The position numbers and the translations under genes are program-made. A stretch of DNA of 64,000 bases from NCBI RefSeq assembly GCF_900112035.1, contig NZ_FOKC01000001.1, positions 186,001-250,000 on the forward strand. The letters are read 5' to 3'. Source of the DNA: Nocardioides alpinus. Lineage in GTDB: Bacteria > Actinomycetota > Actinomycetes > Propionibacteriales > Nocardioidaceae. Below the pieces are notes generated by a model. It saw only the letters and a list, made by a program, of their open reading frames with translations, searched no databases and was not told the origin of the DNA. Each line of letters begins with the position of its first letter. The stretch's first letter is position 1. This document shows positions 5,365 through 48,660 of this stretch, piece by piece.

Positions 5365-6725
5365 ACGCCATCTCTCACAATCACTTGAGGGTCCACCACA
5401 CTCTTGGGGACCAGGGTCGGCCAGTAGGCCATCACACGGCTCGGCCTCATCCGTCCCCCGGCCAGTAGACCGGTGAAGCCGGGCGGGCCCATCACCAGAG
5501 GGGCGATCTCGGCCGCGAACCTGCTCACGGTGTCTGGGTCGTCTGCCCAGATCGAGACCCGCAGGACGACCTCGGACTGGTCCGAGCCCGCCGGCGGAAC
5601 TACCCGGCCGTGAACGGAGTTGTATCCGACGAGATCGGTGCGGATCGCTCGGAGGGGCAGGCCAAGGTCTTTCAGTCGCGTCCGCAGGACAGAGTCCGCC
5701 AGTTCAGCCTTGGCGATCGCGTCAGGCCACGCATACGTGATCATCGCGGCGCCCTGGAACCCGTCCGAGTAGGCCATCGACACCTTCAACGAGTCCGTCG
5801 GGGGCCGGCCCCGCGCGCCTGTGACTTCGACTCGGTCCGGGCCGACCTCCTGCACCTGAAGGGCGGTGAAGTCGGCCGTCACCTCGGGCGACAAGTACGT
5901 TGCTGGGTCACCGAGCTCGTACAGCAGTTGCTCGGTCACGGTAGCGGTGGTCACCGCGCCCCCGGTCCCCGGGTGCTTGGTGACGACGAAGGTGCCGTCG
6001 GCGCTCACCTCGACGATGGGGTACCCGACATGCGCGAGATCGTCCATCGTGCGCCATCCACCCTGGAAATTGCCGCCGCTGGCCTGGGCGCCACACTCGA
6101 TCGTGTGCCCGGCCACCGTGCCCGCCGCAAGCAGGTTCCAGTCATCCCACTGCCAGCCGAACTCATGCACGAGAGGACCCAGAACCAATCCGGGATCCGT
6201 GCAGCGTCCGGTGATCACAACGTTCGCTCCATCGGCCAGAGCGCGTGCGATCGGTTCAGCGCCTAGATAGGCGTTCGCACTGGCGATGCGGTCTCTGACC
6301 TCGTCAAAGGACGTGCCGGTGTCCAGGTTCTGCAACGGCACGCCTTCACTCTCCAGGTCGTCCAGCTGCGCCATGATGTCATCGCCGGTGACGACGCCGA
6401 CCCGCAGCCCGCTGATCCCTTTGCTCGCTGCGACATCGAGCAGAGCCTGGGCACAACCCTGGGGGTTGACTCCCCCGGCATTGGCAACCACCTTGATGTC
6501 TCGTTTTAGGCACTCCTCCATGATCTCCGACATGAGATCGACGAAATCCCGCGCGTACCCGGCATCGGGGTCTCGCTCGTACTGCTTGCGCAGGACAGAC
6601 ATGGTGATCTCGGCCAGGTAGTCCAAGGTCAGGTAGTCGATGTCACCACCTCGTACCTGGGCTACTGGCGCAGCGGGACTGTCACCCCAGAAGGCCTGTC
6701 CGTTCGCAATCCTTACCGTGTTCAA
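5361..6725 (-). CDS. DUF1446 / AtuA-like acyclic terpene utilisation family protein
   Basis: 454-residue protein of the DUF1446 family. Recognisable segments are [11 protein letters not shown] near residue 80, [26 protein letters not shown] in the middle third, [14 protein letters not shown], and [10 protein letters not shown], all shared with the fused protein at 57991-59805. Its TTG start (6725) overlaps the stop of the phosphate acyltransferase gene (TTGA) and follows GAAGGAG at 8 bp. The family neighbours geranyl-CoA carboxylase in atu operons, here followed by carboxylase beta and alpha. The catalytic role is unproven; a cytosolic CoA-intermediate enzyme is likely from context. Confidence 0.88.
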   Translation of the reverse strand: [454 protein letters not shown]

Positions 6726-7783
6726 CTCAGCACTCCTTCTCGTCGACTGCTCTCCGGCTCAGGGTTCTGCAGGGTGTCGTAGAGCAGCATTCGCAGGGTG
6801 GTCACGATGTCGTCGACGCTGCACCCCCGCGATACGTCCGCAAATGGCCTCGCGAGGCCCTGCAGGAAGGCCCGTGCCCGTGCCCCCCCCAGTTGCTCCG
6901 CCACTTTGTAGGCAATGTTGGCCGAGTCGAGACTGGGGAAGACAAGAACATTGGCCGCGCCAGCCAGTGCGCCGGTCGCGTTCTTGCGCTCCGCCACAGC
7001 CATGGAGACGGCTGAGTCGAACTGCAGTTCTCCGTCGACGGCCTCCTCGGGAAACCTCCGTCGGAAGAGAGTGACGGCGTCGCGGATGCGCTGGACGTGG
7101 AGGGACCCAGAACTGCCCCGCGTGGAGAAGGACAGAAAACCGATACGCGGCTCGGTCCTCATCAAGGCTCGCCAGGATCGGGCCGTGGCGGCCGCGATGT
7201 CGGCGAGCTGATCGACGGTGGGCATAGGGGTCACCACAGCATCCGCGAAGGCGAGCGTGCCTCCAGATCCGACGTCCGGTCGCTGAGTGTCGAGAAAGAT
7301 CGCTCCACTGACGGTGGATCGTTCCGGCGCCAGCCCGATGCACGAGAGACCGGCACGGAGCATGTCCGCACTGGTGGTACGCGTTCCTCCGATGGCTGCG
7401 TCCATCCATCCGCACCGGACCAGCGTCGCACCCCAGGCAGCGGGGTTCGACAGCGTCGCGCTGCGAAGGTCGGACGCCGGGCCCACCTGACGCTCGAAGT
7501 CGCGCACCAACTGTTCGCGGACGGCGGGGTCGCTGACGTCGAGCGTGTCGATTGCACCCACGTCGATGCCCTGGTCTCGGGAAGCACGCTGGATCTCCGA
7601 CCGCTTCCCGAGGAGCACCGGTCGGCAGAGGCCGGTTTGCGTCGCGAGGGCCGCTGCTCGCAGCATCCGTGGCTCGTCACCTTCGATGAAGGCCACTCGC
7701 GACGACGACGAGACGTTCTCGATGTCTCTCCACGCGCCGGTACTCGAACCCGCGCTCGGAGCCAGTTCAGGCCGTGGGACCAT
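6722..7783 (-). CDS. phosphate acyltransferase (Pta/Ptb family)
   Basis: 353-residue protein with signatures of phosphate acetyl-/butyryltransferases: VFPSLDSANIAYKVAEQLGG around residue 285 and QGLARPFADVSRG shortly after, corresponding to the phosphate/CoA site of Pta. It would interconvert an acyl-CoA with acyl-phosphate. It overlaps the upstream CoA ligase by 17 bp (start ATG 7783) and the DUF1446 gene by 4 bp. No acyl kinase is present in the window. A phosphate acyltransferase is not part of the classical Atu or Liu operons, so it may serve to recycle free CoA or to release the acetyl end product. Family call is firm; substrate unknown. Confidence 0.85.
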   Translation of the reverse strand: MVPRPELAPSAGSSTGAWRDIENVSSSSRVAFIEGDEPRMLRAAALATQTGLCRPVLLGKRSEIQRASRDQGIDVGAIDTLDVSDPAVREQLVRDFERQVGPASDLRSATLSNPAAWGATLVRCGWMDAAIGGTRTTSADMLRAGLSCIGLAPERSTVSGAIFLDTQRPDVGSGGTLAFADAVVTPMPTVDQLADIAAATARSWRALMRTEPRIGFLSFSTRGSSGSLHVQRIRDAVTLFRRRFPEEAVDGELQFDSAVSMAVAERKNATGALAGAANVLVFPSLDSANIAYKVAEQLGGARARAFLQGLARPFADVSRGCSVDDIVTTLRMLLYDTLQNPEPESSRREGVLS

Positions 7784-9440
7784 AGCCTTTGAGGTCCATG
7801 GACTTCGCGTAGGCGTCCTGCAAGACGAACTTCTTCACCTTGCCAGCCGGCGTCAGCGGGTACTCGGTGACGAACTCGACGTATCGAGGAACCTTGAAGC
7901 TGGCAAGTTGTCCCCGACAGTAGTCGATGAGTTCGGCCTCCGTCGCCTCGTGATCTGCCTTCAACTGGACGACCGCGAGCCCGACCTCGCCGTACTTCTC
8001 GTCCGGGACGCCGACGAGATAGGCGTCCTGAACGGCCGGGTGGGTGCGCATGAATGCCTCGACCTCTGCGGGGGCGACGTTCTCGCCTCCCACGATGTAC
8101 AAGTCCTTGAGGCGTCCGGTGACGTAGTAGAACCCATCCTCGTCGCACCTGACCATGTCGCCTGTGTGCAGCCAGCCGTCCTCGTCGAGAACCTGAGCGG
8201 TCTGTTTGGGCATCTTGTAGTAGCCCTGCATGACGTTGGGGCCCCGAGTGAGCAGCTCGCCGTCGAAACCCGGGCCCACCTCTTCTCCAGTGTCCGGGCC
8301 GATGATCTTCGCCTCGCAACCTTTCGGGCGGCCCACCGATCCCACTCGCTGTTCGAAGGGGTCTTCCTTGCGCGAGATCGTGATCAGTGGGGAGCTCTCG
8401 GTCATGCCCAGACCGATGATGATCGTCATCCCGAAGGCCTTCTCGACAGACCTGCTGACCTCGACCGGGCACGGCGCGCCCGCCATGAACGCCATCTTCA
8501 TGGTGCTGTAGTCGTACTCCTGGAGGCTGGGATCGTGCAACAGGGCGATGTAGATGGTCGGAACCCCACCGGTGTGCGTGCACTTCTCCTCGGCCAGGAT
8601 GCGGAGGGCCAGTGCGGGGACGAATCTGTCCATGGAGATGAGGGTCGATCCCCGTTGAAGTGCACTCAGCAGGCCCAGGACACAACCACCATTGTGGAAG
8701 AACGGGATGGGAATGAGGTACCTGCTGTCATCGTCGAGCTCCAGAGACTCACTGAAGTGCAAGGAGTTCGTCAGGAGGTTGGCGTGTGACAAGAGGCACC
8801 CCTTCGGGTCTCCTGTGGTGCCGGAGGTGTACATGATCATGAGCGCGTCGTCGGGCTTGACGTCCGCCGTGATCCTGAACAGGTCCTCGTCGGTCATCGC
8901 TTGCCCGCCATCCACCAGGGCGTGGAGACTCAGGGCTCCCGGCAGGCCCGGTTCCTCCCCGACACAGACCACGTCGCGCAGCATGGGGAACCGGTCGAAC
9001 CGGTGTGCACCGCTGCTTTCCAACTCAGGGGCAAGGTTCCTCAGAGCCTGCTCGTAGTCGAGGTTGAGGAACCGGGGGGTGTACACCAGGACCGCCGCGT
9101 CCGACTGGCGCAGCAGGTATTCGAACTCGGCCTCCCGGTAGAAGGAGTTCGCCGGGACGAGAACGGCGCCGAGCATCGCGGTCGCATGCTGGAACAGAAC
9201 CCACTCGGGTCCGTTCGGGAGCCACAGGGCTACGTGATCTCCGTGGCCGACACCTCGCGCGTTCAACCCCTTGGCGATGGCCAATGCCTGTTGGTAGAGC
9301 TCCTCGTAGGTCAGCCGCGTCACGCGCGTGCCGTCGTCCTGATAGCAGACGAGTGCTTCCTGCTCGGGATTGTGAACCCGCGCAACCGTCAGCCGGTCCG
9401 CCAGCGTTTCCCCGCCTGGCTCGTAGGTCGCAATGGGCAA
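7767..9440 (-). CDS. AMP-forming acyl-CoA synthetase
   Basis: Activates a carboxylic acid to acyl-CoA through an acyl-adenylate. ANL superfamily signatures: P-loop-like MYTSGTTGDPKGCLLSH, GMTESSPL (A5 region), HTGDMVRCDEDGFYYVTGRLKD and the C-terminal lysine region TPAGKVKKF. The frame extends to an ATG at 9503, but a TTG at 9440 is preceded by GGAAGGAAAG at proper spacing and gives an N-terminus starting PIATYEPGGET, so I use 9440 (about 557 residues). It is the first gene of the left carboxylase operon and defines its substrate entry. Which acid is activated is not evident; medium or branched chains fit the neighbours. Confidence 0.92.
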   Translation of the reverse strand: MPIATYEPGGETLADRLTVARVHNPEQEALVCYQDDGTRVTRLTYEELYQQALAIAKGLNARGVGHGDHVALWLPNGPEWVLFQHATAMLGAVLVPANSFYREAEFEYLLRQSDAAVLVYTPRFLNLDYEQALRNLAPELESSGAHRFDRFPMLRDVVCVGEEPGLPGALSLHALVDGGQAMTDEDLFRITADVKPDDALMIMYTSGTTGDPKGCLLSHANLLTNSLHFSESLELDDDSRYLIPIPFFHNGGCVLGLLSALQRGSTLISMDRFVPALALRILAEEKCTHTGGVPTIYIALLHDPSLQEYDYSTMKMAFMAGAPCPVEVSRSVEKAFGMTIIIGLGMTESSPLITISRKEDPFEQRVGSVGRPKGCEAKIIGPDTGEEVGPGFDGELLTRGPNVMQGYYKMPKQTAQVLDEDGWLHTGDMVRCDEDGFYYVTGRLKDLYIVGGENVAPAEVEAFMRTHPAVQDAYLVGVPDEKYGEVGLAVVQLKADHEATEAELIDYCRGQLASFKVPRYVEFVTEYPLTPAGKVKKFVLQDAYAKSMDLKGYGPTA

Positions 9441-9813
9441 GGCACTTTCCTTCCGTAGTGGAGCTTTCGACGTCGGTTCCCTCAGCAACACCGATCCGAC
9501 CAAGGGTGAGACTGCAACTCTTTCGAACGCTGGTCGATGAACCTACCGTCGGTCAGATCGCGAGGTCAACCCCCAGAACGGGATGTGGTCACGGGTGGTG
9601 ACTTCCCTCTCGTGGGCCACGACCGCCGTACCGAAGTCGCCGCCCCCGCGGCCGTACTCCTCGTCGATGGCGAGTTGCTGTAGCCAGGCGGCACCGGCGT
9701 AGTCAGAAAGAACCGCGTGCTTAGGAATGCGCCTCGGGAAGGGGCGGGTAGTGCGGTGCGGGCGATGGTCTGGTCGACCCAGGCCAGCGGCCGTGGACGC
9801 GCTTGTGCAGCCC
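9441..9813 (-). promoter_or_regulatory. 373-bp intergenic region with possible promoter of the left carboxylase operon
   Basis: No intact gene. On the minus strand a TTGACC box is followed 18 bp later by TAGGTT (around 9550-9590), a moderate promoter candidate for the ligase operon. An imperfect palindrome TCGAACGCTGGTCGA lies at 9523-9537; its right half resembles the operator half-site GGTCGA found at 29924 and 41540, but its spacing differs by one base. The stretch 9600-9698 holds a dehydrogenase remnant listed separately. Confidence 0.35.
9600..9698 (-). pseudogene. remnant of an acyl-CoA dehydrogenase N-terminal domain
   Basis: Minus-strand translation gives AGAAWLQQLAIDEEYGRGGG followed by DFGTAVVAHERE. 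This closely follows the ACAD N-terminal consensus (AGxxGLLxLxxxEEYGGGGGDF...AVVxEE), but the flanking sequence on both sides does not continue the fold and the frame ends at 9543. I read it as about 33 codons left from a deleted dehydrogenase between the MaoC gene and the ligase operon. Chance similarity of a short stretch is the alternative. Confidence 0.4.
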
Positions 9814-16710: not shown

Positions 16711-17900
16711 TTCGCCAACTCCCTGAACGGAACGTCACGGTCGACACGGTGCTCCGGCGGCAGACCGAGCACGCGTTCGGCAACGATGTTGAGCAGGATC
16801 TCCGAAGTGCCGCCCTCGATCGAGTTGCCCTTCGCTCGCAGGTAGCGATACCCCGGACCGCGTCCGAGGAAATCGACCTCCAGCGGGCGCCGCAACGTCC
16901 AGTCGTCGTAGCGCAGGCCCTCTTCACCGAGCAGCTCGAGCTCCAGACCGCTGAGTCGCTGGGCGAGCCGTGCGAAGGACAGCTTCATCGCCGCGCCCTC
17001 CGGGCCCGGCTGACCCACCGCGAGCTTCTGGCGCAGTCGCTGACCGGTCAGGCGAGCCGCCTCCGACTCCACCCAGAGCTCCATCAGGCGGCCGTGCAGG
17101 TCGGGCCGCCGCCGGGCGGGGTTGGCCCGCCACGACTTCGCGACCACTCCGACCATGCCGCTCTCGCGCGGCACCGGTCCCCCGCCGATGGCGACACGCT
17201 CGTTGTTGAGCGTCGCATTGGCGACCTTCCACCCCTCGCCGACGGCCCCGAGGCGCTGGGAGTCGGGAATCCGGACGCCGGTGAGGAACACCTCGTTGAA
17301 CTCGGACTCCCCGGTGATCTGCCGAAGTGGGCGCACCTCGATCCCGGGGTCGGTCATGTCGCAGATGAAGTAGGTCAGGCCCGCGTGCTTGGGAACGTCG
17401 GGGTCGGTGCGTGCAAGCAGGATGGCGAGCTGGGCGTTCTGCGCCGACGACGTCCACACCTTCTGGCCGTCGACGACCCACTGCTCACCGTCTCGAACGG
17501 CTCTCGTGGCAACCGCGGCGAGGTCCGACCCGGCGCCGGGCTCGCTGAACAGCTGGCACCAGACCTGCTCGCCTGTCCACAGCGGACGCAGGAAGGTGTC
17601 GAGCTGGTCCTCGGTTCCGTAGGCCATCAGGGTCGGGGCGGCCATGCCGAGCCCGATCACGTTGATCCGCGGATGGTTGTCGGGGGCGCCCGCCTCGGCG
17701 AACCTGGCGTCCACCTGCTGCTGCAAGTCCGGCGCGAGGCCGAGTCCACCGCGACCTATCGGGAAATGGACCCACGCGAGGCCCGCGTCGAAGCGAGCGC
17801 GCAGGAACTCGACGCGGTCGGTGGTCACGGGGTCGTGCTCGGCCAAGAAGGTCGTGACCTTCTCGGACAGCTTGTCCGCGACATCGGTCTGGGTGTTCAT
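16707..17900 (-). CDS. acyl-CoA dehydrogenase, alpha-type partner of a heteromeric ACAD
   Basis: 397 residues: HFPIGRGGLGLAP-like N-domain, QLFSEPGAGSDLA for FAD/substrate contact, WVVDGQKVWTSSA, and C-terminal KGNSIEGGTSEILLN, where the Glu of EGGTSE is in the usual catalytic position. Start ATG 17900 with GGAGGAGCG upstream and an ATGA overlap with the MBL gene. Pairing with 15595-16710 resembles FadE/ChsE-type heterotetramers used on bulky side-chain acyl-CoAs. Confidence 0.92.
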   Translation of the reverse strand: MNTQTDVADKLSEKVTTFLAEHDPVTTDRVEFLRARFDAGLAWVHFPIGRGGLGLAPDLQQQVDARFAEAGAPDNHPRINVIGLGMAAPTLMAYGTEDQLDTFLRPLWTGEQVWCQLFSEPGAGSDLAAVATRAVRDGEQWVVDGQKVWTSSAQNAQLAILLARTDPDVPKHAGLTYFICDMTDPGIEVRPLRQITGESEFNEVFLTGVRIPDSQRLGAVGEGWKVANATLNNERVAIGGGPVPRESGMVGVVAKSWRANPARRRPDLHGRLMELWVESEAARLTGQRLRQKLAVGQPGPEGAAMKLSFARLAQRLSGLELELLGEEGLRYDDWTLRRPLEVDFLGRGPGYRYLRAKGNSIEGGTSEILLNIVAERVLGLPPEHRVDRDVPFRELAK

Positions 17901-18946
17901 CGCTCCTCCGGGTCAGCAAGGTGGGGGTTCGGGACGTGGTAGGAAGGCACCGACGAGTCCGTGCACCGCTCGAGACGCTGCTGGGCGGCCAAGAGCTTGA
18001 GGTGGGCGTCGGTCTCCAGCACGGCAAGCATGGCGTTGAAGACGTCAAGGCTGGACAATGCGAAGCCGCGGCGGGTCCACGGAATCTCCGCCGCGACCTC
18101 CGCCGCGGTGCGGCAGCCACCGGCGACCAGGTCCTCGCACAGGCCCAACCGCTCCTCGTGGTGGGCCAGCAGTTCGTCGATGCGTTGGTGCGTACTGGTG
18201 GTTGCCGGCCCGTGGGCAGGCAGCAGCCTCATGTCCGGCAGTGCGCGTACCTTGGCTAGCGAACTGAGGAACTCGCTCAACGGCAGCGGCGAGGGCACGG
18301 GCTCGAAACCGATCGACGGCGTGATCGTGGGCAGCACGTGATCGCCCGAGAACAGCAGGCCGGAGGCGGCGTCGGCGAAGACGTAGTGCCCGCGCGTGTG
18401 CCCCGGCGTGGCGAGGGCAGCGAGCGTGCGGCCTTCGATGGCGATCTCGACATCGCCGTCCAGCCACTCGTCGGGCCCGTCCCACAGTTCGGTTTCGACG
18501 CTGTGGCCGGCGGACTCGGTGCGCCATCCTTCTGCCAGGTCGGTGGCGCCGGCTTCGACCAGCCGCCGATACTGTGAGTCGACGACGCTCTTTCCCGAGT
18601 TGAAGTACTCGATGGCGTCGCGGTCTCCGATGCCCAGCGACACCCGGGCGCCGAACTCACGTCGTATGGTCACGGCTTGCGTGTAGTGGTCGCGGTGGGC
18701 GTGGGTGACGAGGAACCGGGTGATGTCGCCGACCTCATGGCCCAGACCGTGCAGCGCAGCGTCGAGCGCGCGCCGCGACTCGTCCAGCGCCCAGCCCGCG
18801 TCCACGCACACCGGGCCGTCGGGAGTGCGGATGAGGTAGACGTTGACCGCCCGGAGAGCGTCGTTGGGCAGCGGCAGTGGGATCCGGAACACTCCCTCGG
18901 CGACCGGCTCTGCGGTCGGCTCGGTCCATGTCGCGCGGGTGCTCAT
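17897..18946 (-). CDS. MBL-fold metallo-hydrolase
   Basis: 349 residues from ATG 18946 behind GGAGGGG; the longer open frame upstream is a read-through shadow of the ligase gene. Zinc motif THAHRDH (82-87), later GHTRGHY and FSGDHVLP for the remaining ligands, and a winged-helix-like C-terminus (TRRGFALSSLDVFNAML). Similar in layout to the protein at 49776-50840 (both have SGDHVLPxITPxIG). This LACTB2-like subgroup contains hydrolases of unknown or ester/thioester substrates; an acyl-CoA thioesterase or lactonase role fits the operon but is inference. Confidence 0.88.
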   Translation of the reverse strand: MSTRATWTEPTAEPVAEGVFRIPLPLPNDALRAVNVYLIRTPDGPVCVDAGWALDESRRALDAALHGLGHEVGDITRFLVTHAHRDHYTQAVTIRREFGARVSLGIGDRDAIEYFNSGKSVVDSQYRRLVEAGATDLAEGWRTESAGHSVETELWDGPDEWLDGDVEIAIEGRTLAALATPGHTRGHYVFADAASGLLFSGDHVLPTITPSIGFEPVPSPLPLSEFLSSLAKVRALPDMRLLPAHGPATTSTHQRIDELLAHHEERLGLCEDLVAGGCRTAAEVAAEIPWTRRGFALSSLDVFNAMLAVLETDAHLKLLAAQQRLERCTDSSVPSYHVPNPHLADPEER

Positions 18947-18996
18947 CCGAGCCCCTCCAACCTCGTATCTGTGGACACGGCGTGACGGTGATCGCC

Positions 18997-20226
18997 TCAT
19001 GCCTGCCAGATCTCTCGAGCGTCGACAAGCTGCGGGGTCTCCGCGTCGACCTCCGGGACGATCTCGATCTCGGCGCGCAACTTGATCTCGTCGCGCAGGG
19101 TGCGCAGCAGGTCCCCCTGCTGTTCTTCGGAGAGTGGCTCGACGATCTCCAGCGTCAGCGTGTCCTGCCCCGCCACACGTCGGATCACCAAACGTCCCAC
19201 GCCGAGACCATGACGCGATAGTGCAGCCCGGACATGGTGCTCGTAGACGAACATTCCCCTGACCTTCACGCCGGGACCGACCCGTCCGAGGACCCCTGCG
19301 ATGCGCGCCGACGTGCGGCCGCACTCGCACACCTCGCTGCTGACTACGCGGGTCAGGTCGCCGGTGGTCAGGCGCACGAAGGGGTAGGTGGGCGAGAAGG
19401 TGGTCACAGCGACCTGGCCGATCTCCCCTTCGGGAACCGGTTGGCCGGTGGCCGGGTCCAGGATCTCGATCACCTTGTCCTCGGTGAGGTGCATGCCGGC
19501 GCGAGCCTCGCATTCTCCGGCGATATAGCCGAGATCGGCGGTCCCATAGAGTTGGGAAACATGTCCCCCGCGCGACTCCAGCACCGCGCGCTCGTCCTCG
19601 GTGAGCTTCTCCGCAGCGACGCAGGCCGTCTTGAAGCGCCAGTCGGCACGTTCGACCAGCATCCCCAGGAACGAAGGTGTTCCCATATAGCCGGTGACCG
19701 GCAGGTCTTTGAGCAACCTGGCTTGTTGTTCGGTGTTGCCCGTGCCCGCCGGGACCACCACGCAGCCGAGCGACAACGCACCGGATTCGAAGGCGTGGCC
19801 GGCAGGCGTGAGGTGGTAGGCGAACGTGTTGAGCACGATGTCGCCGCGCGTCAGTCCGCCGGCTCTCAGGCCCCGGGCGAAGCCCCCGATGTCGGTGGTG
19901 CCCAGCTGTGCGTCGTAGATGGGACCTGGCGACATGAAGATCCGCGAGCTGGCACTCAGGTCTCCGATGAAGAACCCGCCGAAGGGCGGATCCTCCACCT
20001 GCAGGGCCGCCAGATCGCTCTTGGCGACGGGTGTCAGCCGGGTCAGCACGTCGGGCGTGCCGAAGTCGGCTGGCGACACGTTCGACCCTTCCAGCCGCCG
20101 TCGCCACGCCGGTGCCGCGTCCCATAGGTTGGCCAGCAGCGCGGTGACCCGCCGTTGCTGGTCCACGCGCCGCTCCTCCGGGCGGCGGGTCTCGTCGGGA
20201 TCATGGAGAGTTGGGGAGTCGTTCAT
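18997..20226 (-). CDS. phenylacetate-CoA ligase-like AMP-binding protein
   Basis: 409 residues (ATG 20226 in an ATGA overlap with the ABC ATPase; a GTG 9 bp upstream is also in frame). Short ANL ligase of the PaaK type: SQLYGTADLGYIAGEC in the A5 region, RLTTGDLTRVV with the ribose-binding Asp, CECGRTSARIAGVLGRVG and VKVRGMFVYEHHV typical of PaaK. The usual N-terminal SSGTTG loop is not obvious; the equivalent region reads FMSPGPIYDAQLG, so adenylate formation may be altered. It probably activates an aryl- or cyclic acid. Confidence 0.85.
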   Translation of the reverse strand: MNDSPTLHDPDETRRPEERRVDQQRRVTALLANLWDAAPAWRRRLEGSNVSPADFGTPDVLTRLTPVAKSDLAALQVEDPPFGGFFIGDLSASSRIFMSPGPIYDAQLGTTDIGGFARGLRAGGLTRGDIVLNTFAYHLTPAGHAFESGALSLGCVVVPAGTGNTEQQARLLKDLPVTGYMGTPSFLGMLVERADWRFKTACVAAEKLTEDERAVLESRGGHVSQLYGTADLGYIAGECEARAGMHLTEDKVIEILDPATGQPVPEGEIGQVAVTTFSPTYPFVRLTTGDLTRVVSSEVCECGRTSARIAGVLGRVGPGVKVRGMFVYEHHVRAALSRHGLGVGRLVIRRVAGQDTLTLEIVEPLSEEQQGDLLRTLRDEIKLRAEIEIVPEVDAETPQLVDAREIWQA

Positions 20227-40708: not shown

Positions 40709-41500
40709 TCAGCGGCCGTTCGTTCCGGGTTCTCGCCAAGGCAGCGCTCCCAGTGGCACCGGCGCCGCACCGGGCCGCACCACCACCGCGGTACCTCCGG
40801 CCCCGTCGGAGACCAGTCTTGCGCGGACGGGTTCGCGAACCGCGTGTGCTCGCGCCGCGGCGAGGACCGCCGCCGCGTCCGCGTGCTGCTCGCACAGTGA
40901 CAGGTGATAGCGAGTCGGCGGCAGCAGGCGCGGCGTCCACTCCGCGCTGTGGAGGACCTCAGTCGGGCGGACCCAGACGGAGTCGACGGCCTCCCCCTGG
41001 TCGTGCTCCGAGATCTGCCCGGGTGGACTGGCGGCGTAGTAGAAGTAGGTGTCGAACCGGCGCGGTGCGCCCTCGGGAGTGATCCACCGGTCGTGGAAGG
41101 CGAGGGACCCGGGATCAAGACGGAGCGCCCTCTGGTCGAATGCCTCGGCGAGCGACGCTCCACTCGCCAGCGCGGCTCGAACGGCACGCGCGTGCTCGAC
41201 ACTCGCGGGGGCGCCGGCGCCGTCGATGGCCAGCAGGATCAGCGCCTCCTCGCAGGTTTCCCGCACCCCCGCGACGAAGGCGTCGTCGATGACACCGGCG
41301 ACCTGCTGCGGACCTGTCAGGGGGAGGCGCTGGTCGCTGTCGTCGACACTCCCACCCGGGAAGACGAACCGGTCCGGCGCGAACGCCGCTTTCGACGTCC
41401 TGCGCAGCAGCAGCACCTCCACCCCTTCCGGTCCGTCGCGGACGACGACCACGCTTGCCGCTCGTCGCGGGGTCACCACCCCGCCGTCAGCACTCACCAT
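40709..41500 (-). CDS. Nudix hydrolase, NUDT19-like (possible CoA/acyl-CoA diphosphatase)
   Basis: 263 residues from ATG 41500 behind GGGAGA; an ATG at 41518 is in frame. N-terminus ASVVVVRDGPEGVEVLLLRRT, FVFPGGSVDDSD, then an insertion before AFVAGVRETCEEALILLA, so the Nudix box (Gly... RExxEE) is split, as in NUDT19-type proteins that hydrolyse CoA and acyl-CoA. Divergently transcribed from the thiolase operon, sharing its operator. A housekeeping role in CoA turnover fits the setting but is inference. Confidence 0.85.
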   Translation of the reverse strand: MVSADGGVVTPRRAASVVVVRDGPEGVEVLLLRRTSKAAFAPDRFVFPGGSVDDSDQRLPLTGPQQVAGVIDDAFVAGVRETCEEALILLAIDGAGAPASVEHARAVRAALASGASLAEAFDQRALRLDPGSLAFHDRWITPEGAPRRFDTYFYYAASPPGQISEHDQGEAVDSVWVRPTEVLHSAEWTPRLLPPTRYHLSLCEQHADAAAVLAAARAHAVREPVRARLVSDGAGGTAVVVRPGAAPVPLGALPWREPGTNGR

Positions 41501-41529
41501 GCCCACTCTCCCATCCATGTAGACGGATA

Positions 41530-41558
41530 TCGACTTATGGGTCGAACGATTGTAGAGT
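41530..41558 (+). promoter_or_regulatory. promoter with embedded operator, thiolase operon / Nudix
   Basis: Plus strand TCGACT (41530-41535), 17-bp spacer, TAGAGT (41553-41558). A perfect-arm palindrome TCGACTTATGGGTCGA occupies 41530-41545, covering the -35 box and spacer, the typical site of a repressor. Same motif as at 27056 and 29913/29932. Confidence 0.55.
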
Positions 41559-41614
41559 CTTGCACAACCGGCGGAGCGCCACGAGAGAGTGGCGCAGAGT
41601 GAAGGAGCAACCTG

Positions 41615-42775
41615 GTGAACGAGGTCGTGATCGTCGATGGTGTCCGCAGCCCCATGGGCAGACGGGGAGGCGGTTTGGCCGACGTTCATGCGGTCGACCT
41701 CCTGGCGCACGTGCTCAGCGCGATCGTCGACCGCACCTGGATCGACCCGGCAACGGTTGACGATGTGATCGGCGGCTGTGTAGGGCAGGTCGGCGAACAG
41801 TCCACCAACGTCACTCGCAACGCGTGGCTGGCGGCGGGGCTTCCCGTATCGGTGCCAGCGGTCACCGTCGATCGCCAGTGCGGCTCGAGCCAGCAGGCGC
41901 TGCACTTCGCCGCCCAAGGGATCGCCGCGGGCACCTACGACGTTGCCATCGCGTGCGGCGTGGAGTCGATGACCCGGATCCCGATCGGCTCCGCTGCCAC
42001 CTTTCAGGGCTCTCCCTACAGCGACCGGCTACTGGCAGCGCATTCCTTGGTCTCGCAGGGCGAGTCGGCCGAACTGATCGCGGAGAAGTGGGGATTCTCC
42101 CGCTCAGACCTGGACACGCTGGCCGTGCGCTCCCACCGCACCGCCATCGCGGCACGGGACGCAGGAGTCTTCGCGCGCGAGATCGCCCCCGTCCAGGTGG
42201 CCGGGACACTGGTGGACCACGACGAGGGGATCCGCGAACCCGACCCTGACCGCATCGCCTCGCTGAAGCCGGTCTTCAAAGAGGACGGCGTGATCACCGC
42301 GGCGACCTCCTCCCAGATCACCGACGGCGCTGCGGCGCTGCTGCTGATGAGCGGGGACCGCGCGCGGGAGCTGGGCATCACGCCCCGCGCGCGGGTGGTC
42401 TCGATGGCGCTTGCCGGCGACGACCCCGTGATGATGCTGACGGCGCCGGCGCCGGCCACGCGCAAGGCCCTCGATCGAGTCGGTCTTGTTGTGGATGACC
42501 TCGATGCGGTCGAGATCAACGAGGCGTTCGCAAGCGTCGTTCTGGCCTGGCGCGACGAGCTGAACATCTCCAAGCAGTGGTACGACGAGCACGTCAATGT
42601 GCATGGCGGGGCGATGGCCCTGGGGCATCCCCTCGGCGGGTCGGGCGCGCGTCTGATGATCAGTCTGATGTCGGTGCTCGAGGAGCGCGGCGGTCGCTAT
42701 GGACTGCAGACCATGTGCGAAGGCGGCGGCCAGGCCAACGCGACGCTCATCGAGCGCTGGGGGGCCGCGCAATGA
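41615..42775 (+). CDS. thiolase (acetyl-CoA C-acyltransferase)
   Basis: 386 residues, GTG start with AAGGAG 8 bp upstream. All catalytic elements are present: nucleophile in DRQCGSSQQALHFAAQG (about residue 90), GGAMALGHPLGGSGAR with the His, and the second Cys in MCEGGGQANATLIER. Typical degradative thiolase cleaving a 3-ketoacyl-CoA, closer to the FadA5/FadA6 type of steroid pathways than to PhaA. First gene of the plus-strand operon; ATGA overlap with the next thiolase gene. Confidence 0.94.
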   Translation: MNEVVIVDGVRSPMGRRGGGLADVHAVDLLAHVLSAIVDRTWIDPATVDDVIGGCVGQVGEQSTNVTRNAWLAAGLPVSVPAVTVDRQCGSSQQALHFAAQGIAAGTYDVAIACGVESMTRIPIGSAATFQGSPYSDRLLAAHSLVSQGESAELIAEKWGFSRSDLDTLAVRSHRTAIAARDAGVFAREIAPVQVAGTLVDHDEGIREPDPDRIASLKPVFKEDGVITAATSSQITDGAAALLLMSGDRARELGITPRARVVSMALAGDDPVMMLTAPAPATRKALDRVGLVVDDLDAVEINEAFASVVLAWRDELNISKQWYDEHVNVHGGAMALGHPLGGSGARLMISLMSVLEERGGRYGLQTMCEGGGQANATLIERWGAAQ

Positions 42776-43935
42776 CCGACACGTTCGTCGCGGGCACGGG
42801 CATCGCAGTCTTCGACCGCGCCCCCGCCACTCGATCCGCCGACCAGGTCGAGCACGCCGTACGCGCTGCACTCGCGGATGCCGCCGTCGGACTTGATCAG
42901 ATCGACGCCGTCTATGTCGGCAACGCCGCGAGCGGCCTGCTCACCGGCCAGGAGATGATCCGCGGTCAAGTACTTCTGCGCCAGTTCGATCTGCGTGGTG
43001 TGCCAGTCGTCAACTGCGAGAACGCCTGCGCGAGCGGCTCCACTGCGCTGCACCTCGCGGACACGGCGCTCCGCGCCGGCCGGGCCGGCACCGTGCTGGT
43101 CGTCGGAGCGGAGAAGATGGCCAGTGAGGACAAACAGCGCCCGATGATCGCCTTGGCCGCAGCGGTGGACCAAGAGCGGCTGGAGGAGGAATCCCCCGAC
43201 GTCCGAGGCAGCGGCTCTCTATTCATGGACATCTACGCGCAGTTGGCGCGTGACTACATGGATAAGCACGGGGCCACCCCCGAGGACTTCGCCGCGCTGG
43301 TCGTGAAGAATCGGCGTCACGCCTCCCACAACCCGGTCGCCCAGTTCACGGCCGCCATCACCGTCGAGGAGGTCCTCGACTCCCGGCTGATCAACGACCC
43401 CCTCACCCTGCCGATGTGCTCACCCATTGGCAACGGCGCGGCGGCGGTCATCCTCACCGTCGAGCCCGCGCCCGAGGCCACGACGGTGCGGCTGCTTGCC
43501 TCCAGCCTGGTCTCCGGTCGAGGACAGCACTCCGAGCCGGCCGTCGCTCATGCGGCGCGGTTGGCCTTCCGTCAGTCGGGGGTCTCACCCGGCGACGTGA
43601 ACTTGGCCGAGGTGCACGACGCCACCGCGCCTGCCGAGCTGATCGCGCTAGAGGAGCTGGGCCTGCTCGCCCCGGGAGAGGGGGTCTTCGCGGTGCGCAA
43701 GGGACGGCTGAGCGTGGGAGGCGACCTGCCGACGAATCCCAGCGGAGGCCTGGTCTGCAAGGGCCACCCCGTGGGTGCTACCGGCGTGGCACAGGTGGTC
43801 GAGGTGGCCGACCAGCTCAGGGGTCGCGCCGGCGGGCGCCAGGTCGAGGGCGCCCGGATCGGGATCACCGAGAACGCCGGCGGGTGGCTGGGCGGGGACG
43901 TCGCGGCGGCCGCCGTGCACCTCCTGGGGCGGTGA
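42772..43935 (+). CDS. thiolase, SCP-x/lipid-transfer type with intact catalytic residues
   Basis: 387 residues from ATG 42772 (overlap with the upstream stop). NCENACASGSTALHLA holds the nucleophile Cys and NPSGGLVCKGHPVGATGVAQ the catalytic His. AGGWLGG at the end replaces the usual Cys-Gly-Gly loop. Works on 3-ketoacyl-CoA with a branched or bulky chain by family analogy. Co-expressed with the preceding classical thiolase, suggesting two consecutive cleavages or chain-length specialisation. Confidence 0.92.
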   Translation: MTDTFVAGTGIAVFDRAPATRSADQVEHAVRAALADAAVGLDQIDAVYVGNAASGLLTGQEMIRGQVLLRQFDLRGVPVVNCENACASGSTALHLADTALRAGRAGTVLVVGAEKMASEDKQRPMIALAAAVDQERLEEESPDVRGSGSLFMDIYAQLARDYMDKHGATPEDFAALVVKNRRHASHNPVAQFTAAITVEEVLDSRLINDPLTLPMCSPIGNGAAAVILTVEPAPEATTVRLLASSLVSGRGQHSEPAVAHAARLAFRQSGVSPGDVNLAEVHDATAPAELIALEELGLLAPGEGVFAVRKGRLSVGGDLPTNPSGGLVCKGHPVGATGVAQVVEVADQLRGRAGGRQVEGARIGITENAGGWLGGDVAAAAVHLLGR

Positions 43936-43938
43936 CCG

Positions 43939-45030
43939 TTGAGCGACGCGGCCCGAGCGGGCGCCCACGGGATCGCCTTCGAGCGCTCCCCCCGCACCAC
44001 CCGGTACCTCGACCCGTCCCAGAACTGGGCGCCCGCCCAGATCACCAGCGAGATCCGGCGTGACCCGTTGCTGGGCACCACCGGTCGCCTCGCTCACTTC
44101 GTGGGATTCAGACCTCAAGCGGAGGACTTCGCAGAGCTTGCCGAGACCACTCGCGAGATCTGCCCCTTCTGTCCCGAGCGCCTGGAGGTCGTCACCCCGC
44201 AGCTTCCTCCCGATGTCTTCGCCGAGGGACGTCTGAGCCGGGGAGAGGCGACCCTGGTGCCAAACCTGTCCCCCTACGACGCCTTTAGCGCGGTGACGGT
44301 GATCTGCGCCCAGCACTTCGTCGCGATCGATGCGTGGTCGCCTGACGTCCTGCGCAACGCCATCAGTCTTGCCGGCGATTATGCGAAGGCGGTGCGCGAG
44401 GCCGGGAACGACCTGCCGTTCACACTGCTGAGCTGGAACTACATGCCGCCCGCCGCGTCGACGCAGATCCATCCCCATCTGCAGGTGATCGTCACCGACG
44501 AGCCGGGAGAGAACGTCAAGAGGCGGATCCGCGCGCAGCGGGAGTACTTCGAGCGTTGGGGACGCCCCTATTTCGACGACCTGGTCGAGACCGAGCGTGC
44601 CTTGGGTGAGCGTTGGGTGTACGACAGCGAGCACCTGACGGTGCTGACCGACTTCGTATCACTCTCGGCGCTGTCGGACGTGCGCATCGTCTTCTCGGAC
44701 CATCAGGTGCTCGACACCCTCGACGACGCGGCCTTGGCCGACTTCTCCACGGTCACCGCGCGGCTGCTGAGTGCACTCGGGGAGACTGGCATCTCGAGCT
44801 TCAACATGTCCTTCTTCCCGGCCACCCTGGATGCCGCCGACGGCGGGCGGCTGCACGCCGTACTCACGCCACGGCTGTCCTTCTCCCCCGCACTGCACGC
44901 GAACGACATCGGCGCGCTGAACCTGCAGCTGGGCGAGCCCTACATGGCGCGTAGCCCGGAGTACCTCGCCGCCTCGCTGCGGCCCGCGTTCGGCCAGGCA
45001 TCCCGGTACGCCCCTTCAGGAGGGTCATGA
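43939..45030 (+). CDS. GalT-like HIT-superfamily protein
   Basis: 363 residues, TTG start 3 bp after the thiolase stop. Zinc-site cysteines in ICPFCPE (75-78), His126 in VICAQHFVAI, and QIHPHLQV with His178, nucleophile-position His180 and Gln182, matching the C-C-H-H zinc set and HPHxQ active site of galactose-1-phosphate uridylyltransferase. The C-terminal half (SFNMSFFPA, LHAVLTPRLSF) is also GalT-like. No galactose genes are nearby. It is enclosed by thiolase and dehydrogenase genes (ATGA overlap downstream), so its nucleotidyl-transfer or hydrolysis activity probably serves the CoA pathway, for example on an acyl-adenylate. That is inference. Confidence 0.8.
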   Translation: MSDAARAGAHGIAFERSPRTTRYLDPSQNWAPAQITSEIRRDPLLGTTGRLAHFVGFRPQAEDFAELAETTREICPFCPERLEVVTPQLPPDVFAEGRLSRGEATLVPNLSPYDAFSAVTVICAQHFVAIDAWSPDVLRNAISLAGDYAKAVREAGNDLPFTLLSWNYMPPAASTQIHPHLQVIVTDEPGENVKRRIRAQREYFERWGRPYFDDLVETERALGERWVYDSEHLTVLTDFVSLSALSDVRIVFSDHQVLDTLDDAALADFSTVTARLLSALGETGISSFNMSFFPATLDAADGGRLHAVLTPRLSFSPALHANDIGALNLQLGEPYMARSPEYLAASLRPAFGQASRYAPSGGS

Positions 45031-46190
45031 TGGACTTCGCCGAATCCGAACTTCACCGCGACATTCGCGCTTCGGTGCGCGCCATCGCTGAGAAGTACGG
45101 CCATGCCTACTACCAGCGCACGGCCGCCGAGGGGTCGCGCAGTGAGGAGCTGTGGAACGAGGTCGCAGAAGCCGGGTTCGTCGGGGTGAACCTTCCCGAG
45201 GAGTACGGCGGCGGCGGGCTAGGGATCAGCGAGCTGGCGATCGTCGGCGAGGAACTGGCCGCTCACGGCTGTCCGCTGCTGCTACTGGTCGTGTCGCCCG
45301 CGATCTGCGGCACGGTGATATCTGCCTACGGCACCTCCGAGCAGAAGCAGCGTTGGCTGCCCGACCTGTGCTCGGGGTCTGCCAAGATGGCCTTCGCGAT
45401 CACCGAACCCGAAGCCGGGAGCAACAGCCACCAGCTCGCCACCCGGGCCAGCCGTGAAGGCGAGGAGTGGGTGCTCAACGGCACCAAGCACTACATCTCA
45501 GGCGTGGACGAGAGCCGTGACATCCTGGTCGTGGCCCGCACGGGGCGCACCGACTCCGGCCGCGGACGGTTGAGCCTCTTCGTCGTACCCACGGACGCGG
45601 CGGGGCTGAGCATGCACCCGATCCCGATGCAGGTCAACGCCCCGGAGAAGCAGTTCACCCTCACCTTCGAGGACGTGCGGTTGCCCGCCGACCGCTTGCT
45701 GGGCGAGGAGGGCGAGGGGCTGCGGCAGATCTTCGTCGGGCTCAACCCCGAGCGCATCATGACAGCCGCCCACGCCTGCGGACTGGCTCGTTACGCGCTT
45801 GACAAGGCCGCCCGCTATGCGCAGGAGCGGGTGGTGTGGGGCGTGCCCATCGGTGCACACCAAGGGGTGGCGCACCCGCTCGCGGAGGCCTCGATCCACC
45901 GCGACCTGGCGTGGCTGATGACCCAGAGGGCGGCTTGGCTGGTCGACGCAGGCATGGACCCACGAGAATCGGGAGTCGCCGCGAACAGCGCGAAGTTCGC
46001 CGCGGCGGATGCCGCCGGGGAGGCACTGGACCGCGCGATCCAGGTGCACGGCGGCCACGGCCTGTCCACAGAGTTCGGCCTGGCGGACCTCTGGGGCTTC
46101 GTGCGACTGCACAAGACGGCGCCAGTGAGCCGCGAGATGGTGCTCAACCACATCGCGCAGCAGGTACTGCACCTGCCGAGGTCGTACTGA
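45027..46190 (+). CDS. acyl-CoA dehydrogenase
   Basis: 387 residues. EEYGGGGLGISE (about 60), FAITEPEAGSNSH, HYISGVDESRDILVVARTGR, C-terminal HGGHGLSTEFGLADLWGFVRLHKTAPVSREM. The EGT/GGGT catalytic motif is replaced by the HKTAPVSRE segment, a feature of this subfamily. Strong AGGAGG precedes the ATG at 45027; a second ATG follows immediately. Paralogue of the truncated gene at 1-695. Confidence 0.92.
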   Translation: MMDFAESELHRDIRASVRAIAEKYGHAYYQRTAAEGSRSEELWNEVAEAGFVGVNLPEEYGGGGLGISELAIVGEELAAHGCPLLLLVVSPAICGTVISAYGTSEQKQRWLPDLCSGSAKMAFAITEPEAGSNSHQLATRASREGEEWVLNGTKHYISGVDESRDILVVARTGRTDSGRGRLSLFVVPTDAAGLSMHPIPMQVNAPEKQFTLTFEDVRLPADRLLGEEGEGLRQIFVGLNPERIMTAAHACGLARYALDKAARYAQERVVWGVPIGAHQGVAHPLAEASIHRDLAWLMTQRAAWLVDAGMDPRESGVAANSAKFAAADAAGEALDRAIQVHGGHGLSTEFGLADLWGFVRLHKTAPVSREMVLNHIAQQVLHLPRSY

Positions 46191-47254
46191 TGTGGCAGGC
46201 AGCGCTGCCGGTGCTGAACGGGATCCGGGTCCTCGACCTCAGCCTGCAGCTGCCCGGACCGTACGCGACCCGACTGCTGGCCGACATGGGTGCCGACGTG
46301 CACCGGATAGAGCCGCCGGGCGGCGACCCGGCACGTGCCTTCCCCTCCCTCTACACCGAGGTCAACGTCGGCAAGGAGGTGGAGGAGGTGGATCTCAAGT
46401 CGGACGCCGGTCTTCGCCGCGTCCTCGACCTCGCACGTGACTGCGATGTGTTGGTCGAAGGCTTCCGACCCGGAGTTCTCGCACGTCTGGGCCTGGGCTA
46501 CGAGGCGGTGGCACAGGCGAACCCAGGAGTGATCTACTGCTCGATCTCTGGATACGGCCAGGACGGCGAGCGTGCCGACAAGCCCGGTCATGACCTCACC
46601 TACCATGCCGACGCCGGCACGCTCGCCCAGGACGGACCCTCATCCTCAAGCGTGCCACCACTCCCCATCGCCGACCTGGCCTCCGGGCTGATGGCGGCCA
46701 CGACCATCAGCGCCGCTCTCGTGGGTCGCGCAGACACGGGCGCGGGCGCCCATCTCGACGTGAGCATCGCGGACGTGATGGCCTCCTGGACCTTCCCCGT
46801 CGCGCTGTCCCGCGCGGCTCGCGAGGTAGACCTGTTCGGTTCCACTCCGCACTACGGCGTCTTCGACACCGCCGACGGTCACCGGGTCGCGCTCGGGATC
46901 GTCCACGAGCAGCACTTCTGGGAGCGGTTCTGTGACGAGTTCGACCTCGCCGACGAACGCAGCTCCACCTTCGAGGAGCGCCAACGCGACCATCAACGCC
47001 TGCGGCGCAGATTGGAAACACTGTTCGCCGGCCTCACGGCCGCAGAGGTCATCGCCCGAACGACGCAGGTCGACGTGCCCGCGGCCATAGTCCAACGGCC
47101 GGAGGACGTGCTGGACAGTGCTCCCTTCGAGCGTCGAGGACTCATCCGCGGCAGTGGATTTCGTGGCAGGTACGCTCACCCGGTACGTTTTGCGACGACC
47201 TCCACAGCGGCGTCCCCTGAAGGAGATTCGTCCACCCCAGGAGCGACACCATGA
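46190..47254 (+). CDS. class III CoA-transferase (CaiB/BaiF family)
   Basis: 354 residues from ATG 46190 (TGATG with the dehydrogenase stop). Family signature VLDLSLQLPGPYATRLLADMGADVHRIEPPGGDP at the N-terminus, EGFRPGVLARLGLGYEAV, SGYGQDGERADKPGHDLTYHADAG, and AHLDVSIADVMASW, where the Asp corresponds to the catalytic residue. Members are CoA-transferases or alpha-methylacyl-CoA racemases; RADKPGHDLTYHADAG is common to both. With a branched substrate, racemisation would prepare a stereospecific dehydrogenase. Confidence 0.9.
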   Translation: MWQAALPVLNGIRVLDLSLQLPGPYATRLLADMGADVHRIEPPGGDPARAFPSLYTEVNVGKEVEEVDLKSDAGLRRVLDLARDCDVLVEGFRPGVLARLGLGYEAVAQANPGVIYCSISGYGQDGERADKPGHDLTYHADAGTLAQDGPSSSSVPPLPIADLASGLMAATTISAALVGRADTGAGAHLDVSIADVMASWTFPVALSRAAREVDLFGSTPHYGVFDTADGHRVALGIVHEQHFWERFCDEFDLADERSSTFEERQRDHQRLRRRLETLFAGLTAAEVIARTTQVDVPAAIVQRPEDVLDSAPFERRGLIRGSGFRGRYAHPVRFATTSTAASPEGDSSTPGATP

Positions 47255-47877
47255 TCCACCCAGCCACCGAGCCCGACGCCGGGGGGCCGCCGTTGAGCCG
47301 AGTCGCGCGCAAGCGCAACCAGCGCATCGATGCGATCTTGAACGTCGCCGCCCAAGTGGTGGCCGAGCACGGCTACCACAACACGTCCCTGGAGATGATC
47401 GCCGACCAGGTTGATCTCACAAAGGCGTCGCTATACCACTACTTCGACAGCAAGGACGACCTCTTCAGCGCCTGCTTCCAGGCGGTCGCAGAGAAGACCA
47501 TCGCTCGCCTCGCGGCCGTCGCCGACGCGGCGCCGACCCCACTGGACGCGTTGCGCGACCTGATCCTCGAGCAGTTGGAGATCTTCGTCCACGACGACCC
47601 CGACATGGCGCGCCTGTTTCTGCAGCACCAGGATTGGCCGGAGTCGATGCGCGAGAAGCAGCGGCACTGGCGCAGGCTCCACGAAGACATCTTCGTCGCG
47701 GTCGTCGAGGATGGCGTGGCGTCGGGCCAACTGCACCCGCGCGATCCGCGGGTCGCCCTGCACTGCATGCACGGTTCGATCAACTTCGTCCCAATCTGGT
47801 TCCGTCCGCGGTCAGCGGCCGAGGACAAGAAGGCTCTGTCTCTCGTCAGCGAAAGCATCCTCGACATTTTCCGCTAA
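47251..47877 (+). CDS. TetR/AcrR-family regulator, candidate master regulator of the cluster
   Basis: 208 residues; ATG in a 4-bp overlap with the CoA-transferase gene. HTH at about 15-65 (VVAEHGYHNTSLEMIADQVDLTKASLYHYFDSK), ligand domain with WFRP near the C-terminus. It is co-transcribed with the operon whose promoter carries the palindrome at 41530-41545, which makes it the best candidate for binding that motif there and at 27056 and 29913-29947. The HTH resembles the TetR at 4368-5066. Confidence 0.9.
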   Translation: MIHPATEPDAGGPPLSRVARKRNQRIDAILNVAAQVVAEHGYHNTSLEMIADQVDLTKASLYHYFDSKDDLFSACFQAVAEKTIARLAAVADAAPTPLDALRDLILEQLEIFVHDDPDMARLFLQHQDWPESMREKQRHWRRLHEDIFVAVVEDGVASGQLHPRDPRVALHCMHGSINFVPIWFRPRSAAEDKKALSLVSESILDIFR

Positions 47878-47898: not shown

Positions 47899-48660
47899 AT
47901 GACGCTCGACCAGTTGTTCGGCCTCGCTGGCCGCACCGCCCTTGTCACCGGAGCCACGCGTGGGATTGGTGAGGCGATGGCCCAGTCGCTCGACGCTGCA
48001 GGCGCCCGAGTGATCCTCGCGGGCCGGGACCGGCAACGACTCGACCAGGTGGCCTCGGCGCTCGAGCACGACCCCGTGGTCCTCACCGCCGACCTGCAGG
48101 ACCCCGACGGGCCGACGAGCCTCGCCCGTGAAGCGCGTGCCTCGGCCGGGGCAATCGACATCCTCATCAACAACGCAGGAGGATCCTGGAACCAGGCCCT
48201 CAGCGACGTGGACGACGAGAGCTGGGATCGCACCCTCCGAACCAACCTCACCGCTGCCTTCGCGCTCACCCGCGAACTGGCTCCAACGATGGCCGAGCGT
48301 GGCTGGGGTCGGGTGGTGAACGTGGCGAGCGTCATGGGGTTGGTCGGCGACACCCACTCCAGCGCCTACGCGGCTAGCAAGGGCGGCATGATCGCCATGA
48401 CCCGCTCACTGGCGGCCGAGCTCGGGCGCGACGGGGTCACCGTCAACACCCTGTGCCCGGGCTGGGTGGAAACAGACCTCGTCAGCGACCTCCACTCCGA
48501 CGACCGGTTCCAGCAGCGCGTCGTGCGGCGTACCCCCGTCCGGCGTTGGGGGGTGCCCGCCGACATGGCTGCTGCCGCCGTCTTCCTGTCCGGTCCTGGA
48601 TCGGCGTTCATGACGGGACAGACCCTCGTGGTCGACGGCGGTCTCTCGGCGACCTGGTGA
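47899..48660 (+). CDS. SDR oxidoreductase
   Basis: 253 residues: VTGATRGIGEAM, NNAGGSWN, VASVMGLVGDTHSSAYAASKGGM (catalytic Tyr/Lys), LCPGWVETDL, TGQTLVVDGG. Generic FabG-like 3-oxoacyl/3-hydroxyacyl oxidoreductase. Last gene of the plus-strand operon, 21 bp after the TetR gene and convergent with the truncated ligase. Confidence 0.9.
   Translation: MTLDQLFGLAGRTALVTGATRGIGEAMAQSLDAAGARVILAGRDRQRLDQVASALEHDPVVLTADLQDPDGPTSLAREARASAGAIDILINNAGGSWNQALSDVDDESWDRTLRTNLTAAFALTRELAPTMAERGWGRVVNVASVMGLVGDTHSSAYAASKGGMIAMTRSLAAELGRDGVTVNTLCPGWVETDLVSDLHSDDRFQQRVVRRTPVRRWGVPADMAAAAVFLSGPGSAFMTGQTLVVDGGLSATW

Follow-up and report, generated by a model that had tools for sequence, protein, structure and literature searches.

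A GalT-like protein encoded within an acyl-CoA operon of Nocardioides alpinus

The operon and its surroundings

The DNA analysed here, referred to as the window, is a 64,000-nt stretch of contig NZ_FOKC01000001.1 of Nocardioides alpinus. It carries, at positions 43939-45030 of the plus strand, an open reading frame for a protein resembling galactose-1-phosphate uridylyltransferase (GalT). The gene lies within an operon with the order thiolase, Thiolase_C_1-type thiolase, GalT-like gene, acyl-CoA dehydrogenase, CaiB-type CoA-transferase and TetR-type regulator. The genes of the region and the landmarks within the GalT-like gene are as follows.

40712..41566, minus strand: NUDIX hydrolase, divergent from the operon, start uncertain
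41615..42775, plus strand: thiolase, with Thiolase_N and Thiolase_C
42772..43935, plus strand: thiolase-like protein, with Thiolase_C_1; in NCBIfam it matches models for thiolase-domain and lipid-transfer proteins best
43939..45030, plus strand: GalT-like protein, 363 aa, TTG start
44161..44172, plus strand: CPFC, residues 75-78, aligned to GalT zinc ligands C52 and C55
44314..44316, plus strand: H126, aligned to GalT zinc ligand H115
44470..44484, plus strand: HPHLQ, residues 178-182, aligned to the GalT active site
44665..44667, plus strand: S243, Gly in all 23 rows not linked to acyl-CoA genes (alignment A2)
44920..44922, plus strand: N328, Glu in all 23 rows not linked to acyl-CoA genes
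45027..46190, plus strand: acyl-CoA dehydrogenase (Pfam)
46187..47254, plus strand: family III (CaiB-type) CoA-transferase (Pfam)
47251..47877, plus strand: TetR-type regulator (Pfam)
47899..48660, plus strand: short-chain dehydrogenase (SDR; Pfam), 21 bp beyond the TetR gene

The start codon of the GalT-like gene occupies the same position in all four orthologues, being TTG here and ATG or GTG in the other three. The preceding thiolase-type gene ends at 43935, leaving a 3-bp gap, and the end of the GalT-like gene, with its TGA stop codon at 45028-45030, shares 4 bp with the start of the acyl-CoA dehydrogenase gene, whose ATG begins at 45027, which bears out the tight packing between a thiolase and a dehydrogenase claimed in an earlier sequence-only reading of this DNA. 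The combination of CPFC, a mid-chain His and HPHLQ claimed in the same reading is also present, as C75, C78, H126, H178 and the motif at residues 178-182. Purifying selection acts on the gene, with dN/dS values of 0.11-0.17 for all six pairs of the four orthologues.

The wider cluster encodes AtuA with a ferredoxin-like partner, a biotin carboxylase pair, PTA_PTB, an APH-type kinase, several acyl-CoA dehydrogenases (including those at 32680 and 27348, both counted as acyl-type in the neighbour survey below), thiolase-like proteins, a ChsH2-type zinc ribbon and a CoA_trans-type CoA transferase. At least three AMP-forming ligase genes are present in the window, at 7770 and 24300 (both by Pfam) and at 52796 (38% identity to an annotated Halococcus ligase). 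The cluster looks like one for catabolism of branched or isoprenoid/sterol-like acyl-CoA compounds, given AtuA, the ChsH2-type zinc ribbon and the carboxylase, and placing the GalT-like protein "in beta-oxidation", as had been proposed, is consequently too narrow. Two further regions of the minus strand were recorded: at 5062-9503, AtuA, its ferredoxin-like partner, PTA_PTB and an acyl-CoA ligase are encoded by consecutive genes, and at 17900-20125 a 742-aa open reading frame has, as its sole Pfam match at 1e-6, a metallo-beta-lactamase domain (residues 425-638).

Sequences of AtuA, PTA_PTB, the carboxylase and part of the ligase recur at 97-99% identity in another genome, G1094. Since that genome carries AtuA, carboxylase and PTA_PTB (98-99%) and no close match to the second thiolase of the GalT-like operon (42% at best), we rejected the idea that the AtuA/carboxylase end of the cluster requires the GalT-like gene.

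No sugar-specific gene was found among 36 other window proteins scanned with Pfam, a part of the window's open reading frames; two of the 36 had no match at 1e-6. The statement that no sugar genes are near holds for this set; a galactokinase-like gene is found beyond the window, at a distance of about 60 kb.

Kinship with GalT and the fate of its key residues

Searches with the window protein gave an E-value of 9.9e-9 for NCBIfam PRK11720 and, with phmmer against the PDB, 9.6e-5 for E. coli GalT. Its scores of 34.8 and 28.6 bits against the NCBIfam GalT models fall below the cut-offs of 448 and 102.1 bits, respectively, so that neither is passed, and no Pfam family was matched at E 10. As judged from single-sequence comparison, the likeness to GalT is real but weak. 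The GalT-like family to which the protein belongs is not covered by Pfam. A 26-row family profile matched At5g18200 best in the PDB (3e-17), with E. coli GalT at 1.6e-15, and profile alignment of the family to GalT with hhalign gave a probability of 99.7 and an E-value of 1.4e-26, using a GalT set of 33 rows, some partial, of which 23 were used after filtering.

An AlphaFold2 model of the window protein (pLDDT 87.2, pTM 0.87) matched human GALT at 2.0e-16 with Foldseek. VIA Z scores were 27.3 to 1z84, 27.1 to 2h39 (both ADP-glucose phosphorylase) and 27.0 to human GALT (5in3), which constitutes a tie, and they ranged over 25.6-27.0 for E. coli and human GalT structures; the first VIA entry outside these two groups was 4qvu, with Z 15.9. 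Families missing from the VIA list were given no weight. The overlay on GalT suggested in the sequence-only reading thus yields, for the predicted model, the two-domain GalT fold. A chance occurrence of the motif is ruled out by the profile matches and the model. HINT and FHIT hydrolases carry an HxHxH triad, and a HINT-like hydrolase was rejected on the grounds that the motif here is HPHLQ and not HxHxH.

Residue conservation was compared between 27 family rows and 27 GalT rows, the latter comprising E. coli GalT and 26 fetched weaker matches of over 280 aa. The weaker matches fetched from searches with the window protein alone number 32, 6 from one search and 26 from another that had 21 further places. 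Against E. coli GalT all 32 reach E-values of 4e-31 or lower; they were taken as ordinary GalT and are left out of the family rows. The roles of the active-site, zinc and hexose-site residues of GalT are those given in the available text of PMC5081055. In the HPHLQ motif H180 corresponds to the GalT nucleophile H166, Q182 to Q168 and H178 to the zinc ligand H164, while N167 is the equivalent of GalT Asn153. H178, H180, Q182 and N167 are kept in all 27 family rows and C75, C78 and H126 in 24. The E. coli-type zinc ligands C52, C55, H115 and H164 are missing from human GALT, according to the same text of PMC5081055. Three rows from three genomes of genus g264 (L074-L076, corresponding to L103-L105) keep the motif as HPHHQ and have lost three of the four zinc ligands, which are replaced by F, A and D.

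The hexose-site residues show a different pattern. All 27 GalT rows have Lys311, which none of the 27 family rows shows in any of three MAFFT modes. Arg28, likewise invariant in the GalT set of 27, is kept in 14 of the 27 family rows, the window protein having Val in its place. The hexose-site Glu317 (we take the "Glu323" printed in the text of PMC5081055 for the E. coli equivalent of Glu340 to be this residue, by numbering) is also found in all 27 GalT rows; its column falls on N328 with hhalign and E-INS-i or on I324 with L-INS-i and G-INS-i, and none of the four alignment methods places a Glu of the window protein at this position. The E. coli iron-site residues E182, H281 and H298 are not kept either. 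Loss of the iron site and of Asp78 was dropped as a sign of a non-GalT protein, Asp78, E182 and H298 being missing in most of the 27 GalT rows.

Relatives, their neighbourhoods and two changed residues

The operon was seen in four genomes: N. alpinus, N. furvisabuli (to which G1060 probably also belongs), N. caldifontis and G321. The last of these is a bacterium of another order, in which the same operon encodes a GalT-like protein 84-85% identical. A NUDIX gene lies divergently beside the operon in all four. Close orthologues (89-98%) of the neighbouring thiolase occur in three of the ten genomes or records searched, all three of which have the GalT-like gene, and the next-best thiolase match among the ten is 46%. 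Within the genus Nocardioides the GalT-like gene was found in 2/215 genomes. Across Actinomycetota, 37 of 396 genomes match the family at 1e-20, nine of these 37, including that of N. alpinus, with a match above 250 bits. In Hadarchaeota, 17 of the 28 genomes of the phylum carry the family, one as fragments only. A contig scan with patterns from the window protein yielded four loci, two from Nocardioides (98 and 96%) and two from Hadesarchaea (32-33%). Plasmid records gave a single match, in Halococcus dombrowskii (31% identity across 60% of the query and 25% when the whole alignment is counted). The collections of viral contigs and phages yielded no relative, and a viral or phage origin of the gene was rejected on these grounds.

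The Halococcus relative sits between an acyl-CoA dehydrogenase gene, with one short hypothetical open reading frame intervening, and a CaiB gene, on the strand opposite to its acyl-CoA neighbours, and MaoC, SDR, ligase and phosphotransferase genes are nearby. The dehydrogenase and CaiB proteins are 42% and 40% like their counterparts in the window. This dehydrogenase type is common in the genus, with 195/209 genomes matching at 1e-120, and the 42% match therefore says little for a common origin of the gene pair, which counts against the interpretation favoured below.

The neighbours of the family rows were surveyed using the acyl-CoA proteins of the window as queries; some flanks were shortened by contig ends (most strongly L064 to 403 bp and L056 to 712 bp on one side, L071 to 1028 and 2494 bp). 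Within 6 kb, six to seven acyl-type neighbours were found for all four acyl-CoA-linked rows and none for 22 of the 23 others; one Hadarchaeota row (L059) has a thiolase gene 1.9 kb away and keeps E328. The sequence-only reading would have been undermined by homologues accompanied by sugar genes rather than CoA genes, and here the picture is divided. At two Hadarchaeota loci (L108 and L109) Pfam identified trehalose or glycosyltransferase genes in the vicinity and, immediately upstream, a gene of the NTP_transferase/cupin type, and by reading the arrangement looks alike at L041 and L042; these four loci, all of distant homologues, speak against the claim, whereas the Halococcus relative, lying among acyl-CoA genes, speaks for it. 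Further relatives adjoin GlnE and other unrelated genes. One relative of 28-30% identity (L046, 2722-6698) has a CDP-diglyceride synthase-type gene (CTP_transf_1) on one side and a GlpX-type FBPase gene on the other, and another (L099, 8124-10466) comes immediately after a gene for a type I phosphodiesterase/nucleotide pyrophosphatase.

Twenty columns of the 27-row alignment show no variation across the 23 rows not linked to acyl-CoA genes. Exactly two of these columns have changed in every one of the four linked rows: Gly at 243 is replaced by S, S, S and H, and Glu at 328 by N, N, N and T. Both the residue pattern and the grouping were picked after the data had been seen, and they represent at most two independent events, on branches that are both long. 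At the strict limit just one of eight control groupings, the window clade together with its tree sister, yields such columns, two in number; at a 95% limit the acyl grouping still gives two and three of the eight controls are positive (window clade with L073, two; with L061, three; with the sister, three). The Gly column depends on the alignment, there being a gap at 243 in A3 and one extra loop residue in the window clade; the window loop FVSLSALSD contains no Gly, and Halococcus has His without a gap. Residue 328 falls on the GalT hexose contact E317 in hhalign and E-INS-i and not in L-INS-i or G-INS-i, where E317 aligns with residue 324. Column 328 needs two changes on the tree. The AU test disfavours placing the four linked rows in a single clade (p 0.018), and one acyl-CoA clade spanning two domains was accordingly rejected, although, with long branches and a group named post hoc, the test is not relied on.

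Interpretation and comparison with known systems

The predicted fold, the residues, the operon and the conservation are the basis for the explanation that we prefer, namely that the protein is a nucleotidyl transferase of the GalT/ADP-glucose phosphorylase type whose acceptor site has been remodelled and which works on a compound of the operon's acyl-CoA pathway; we consider the chances of this about even. On this reading a transferase or phosphorylase of intact chemistry and changed acceptor site was recruited to acyl-CoA catabolism, perhaps twice. Retention of HPHxQ and the zinc site points, by homology, to nucleotidyl transfer via an NMP-His180 intermediate: H180 would attack the alpha-phosphate of a nucleotide-linked compound, NMP would be held covalently on His180 and would then be passed to a second phosphate, either Pi or an organic phosphate. 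The changed residues, together with the gene context, suggest an acceptor or donor other than hexose phosphate. In the acyl-CoA-linked branches the acceptor site would have been remodelled with the loss of E328 and the loop Gly, so that, in place of an ordinary hexose phosphate, a compound of the acyl-CoA pathway probably serves as the leaving or accepting group. Our guess is that an adenine-nucleotide substrate, acyl-AMP or CoA itself, is the most likely type; CoA, acyl-AMP and a phosphorylated acyl-CoA are candidates, and each taken singly is at best quite unlikely. The nucleotidyl enzyme working on an activated intermediate that was envisaged from the sequence thus gains from the GalT-type fold, the catalytic set, the acyl-CoA partners, the Halococcus context and the two changed residues, and loses from the sugar-nucleotide neighbours in Hadarchaeota and from the galactokinase-like gene in a host without a PF01087 GalT.

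A plain Leloir GalT was rejected: there is no galactose gene among the window proteins scanned, Lys311 is missing and the scores lie far under the cut-offs. A broader sugar role, as an ordinary hexose-1-phosphate nucleotidyl transferase or NDP-sugar phosphorylase whose site in the operon is incidental and which perhaps replaces the missing GalT of the genome, is fairly unlikely but stays a serious rival, because the genome has no PF01087 match and yet encodes a galactokinase-like protein (270 bits, above the TIGR00131 cut-off). The neighbours of the latter gene are, by reading, sugar-transport and GH32-like genes, no GalT match occurs in the 18 kb around it, and the Hadarchaeota relatives adjoin NTP_transferase and glycosyltransferase genes. 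Against such a role stand the rarity of the gene in the genus, the fact that each of the four genomes has it within the acyl-CoA operon, the distance of about 60 kb to galK, and the lack of Lys311 and of Glu at the Glu317 position.

Two alternatives would place the enzyme in adenylate or CoA turnover. A house-cleaning phosphorylase acting on stray acyl-AMP from AMP-forming acyl-CoA synthetases (acyl-AMP + Pi -> ADP + acid) accords with the ligase genes in the window and with the action of HIT-fold relatives on adenylates. The synthetases are, however, encoded outside the operon of the GalT-like gene, and AMP-forming ligases are widespread whereas the GalT-like gene is rare, such that we regard this role as distinctly improbable. 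The second, to which we give no greater weight, is a CoA-splitting nucleotidyl transferase that attacks the diphosphate of (acyl-)CoA, yielding (acyl-)4'-phosphopantetheine and a nucleotidyl product, in partnership with the divergently encoded NUDIX protein, which presumably resembles NUDT19. CoA is itself an NDP-X compound, the NUDIX gene accompanies the operon throughout, and some NUDIX enzymes hydrolyse CoA, according to the available text of PMC9792899. Against it, the NUDIX protein has no NCBIfam match at 1e-5 and no NUDIX is named among 25 annotated features around the Halococcus gene. Finally, a non-catalytic nucleotide-binding or regulatory protein, or a hitch-hiker on a horizontally moved island, would fit the patchy island found in two orders, the loss of three zinc ligands in the three g264 relatives and Val in place of Arg28, but the complete catalytic and zinc set and the purifying selection make this the most improbable reading of all.

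A bolder form of the acyl-CoA interpretation, which we consider quite unlikely, is that nucleotidyl transfer is itself a step of acyl-CoA catabolism, NMP being moved onto or off a phosphorylated acyl-CoA, or off CoA, with separate origins in actinobacteria and haloarchaea. The phosphorylated acyl-CoA could, for example, be a product of the APH-type kinase of the cluster, analogously to the 4-phosphoacyl-CoA route, which the pairing of APH kinase and acyl-CoA dehydrogenase recalls (PMC12440821, in its available text). In G321 an APH kinase/acyl-CoA dehydrogenase block directly adjoins the GalT-like operon. Among the literature matches listed, nothing was on point for a GalT-like enzyme tied to acyl-CoA genes. 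If the acyl-CoA interpretation is true, acyl-CoA catabolism would include a sugar-nucleotide chemistry, and a testable function would be available for a GalT-type family missing from Pfam; the loop Gly, E328 and the Halococcus relative provide a direct sequence test for haloarchaeal genomes.

Among known systems, Pfam DUF4921 (PF16268) and DUF4931 (PF16285; 4qvu) give weak matches for some family members, 2.8e-4 at best, but the gathering score was reached by none of the ten members scanned. GalT itself (1hxp, 1gup, 5in3) shares with the window protein the zinc ligands, HPHxQ, the Asn153 and Asn77 equivalents and Arg31, whereas the window protein is without Lys311 and Arg28 and scores far under the NCBIfam cut-offs. 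The ADP-glucose phosphorylase At5g18200 (1z84, 2h39) differs in that identity is only 16% and no ADP-sugar gene was seen near the window gene, yet it is the best profile match in the PDB and shares the two-domain fold, with a VIA Z of 27.3 and an rmsd of 3.0 over 285 aligned residues, tied with GalT.
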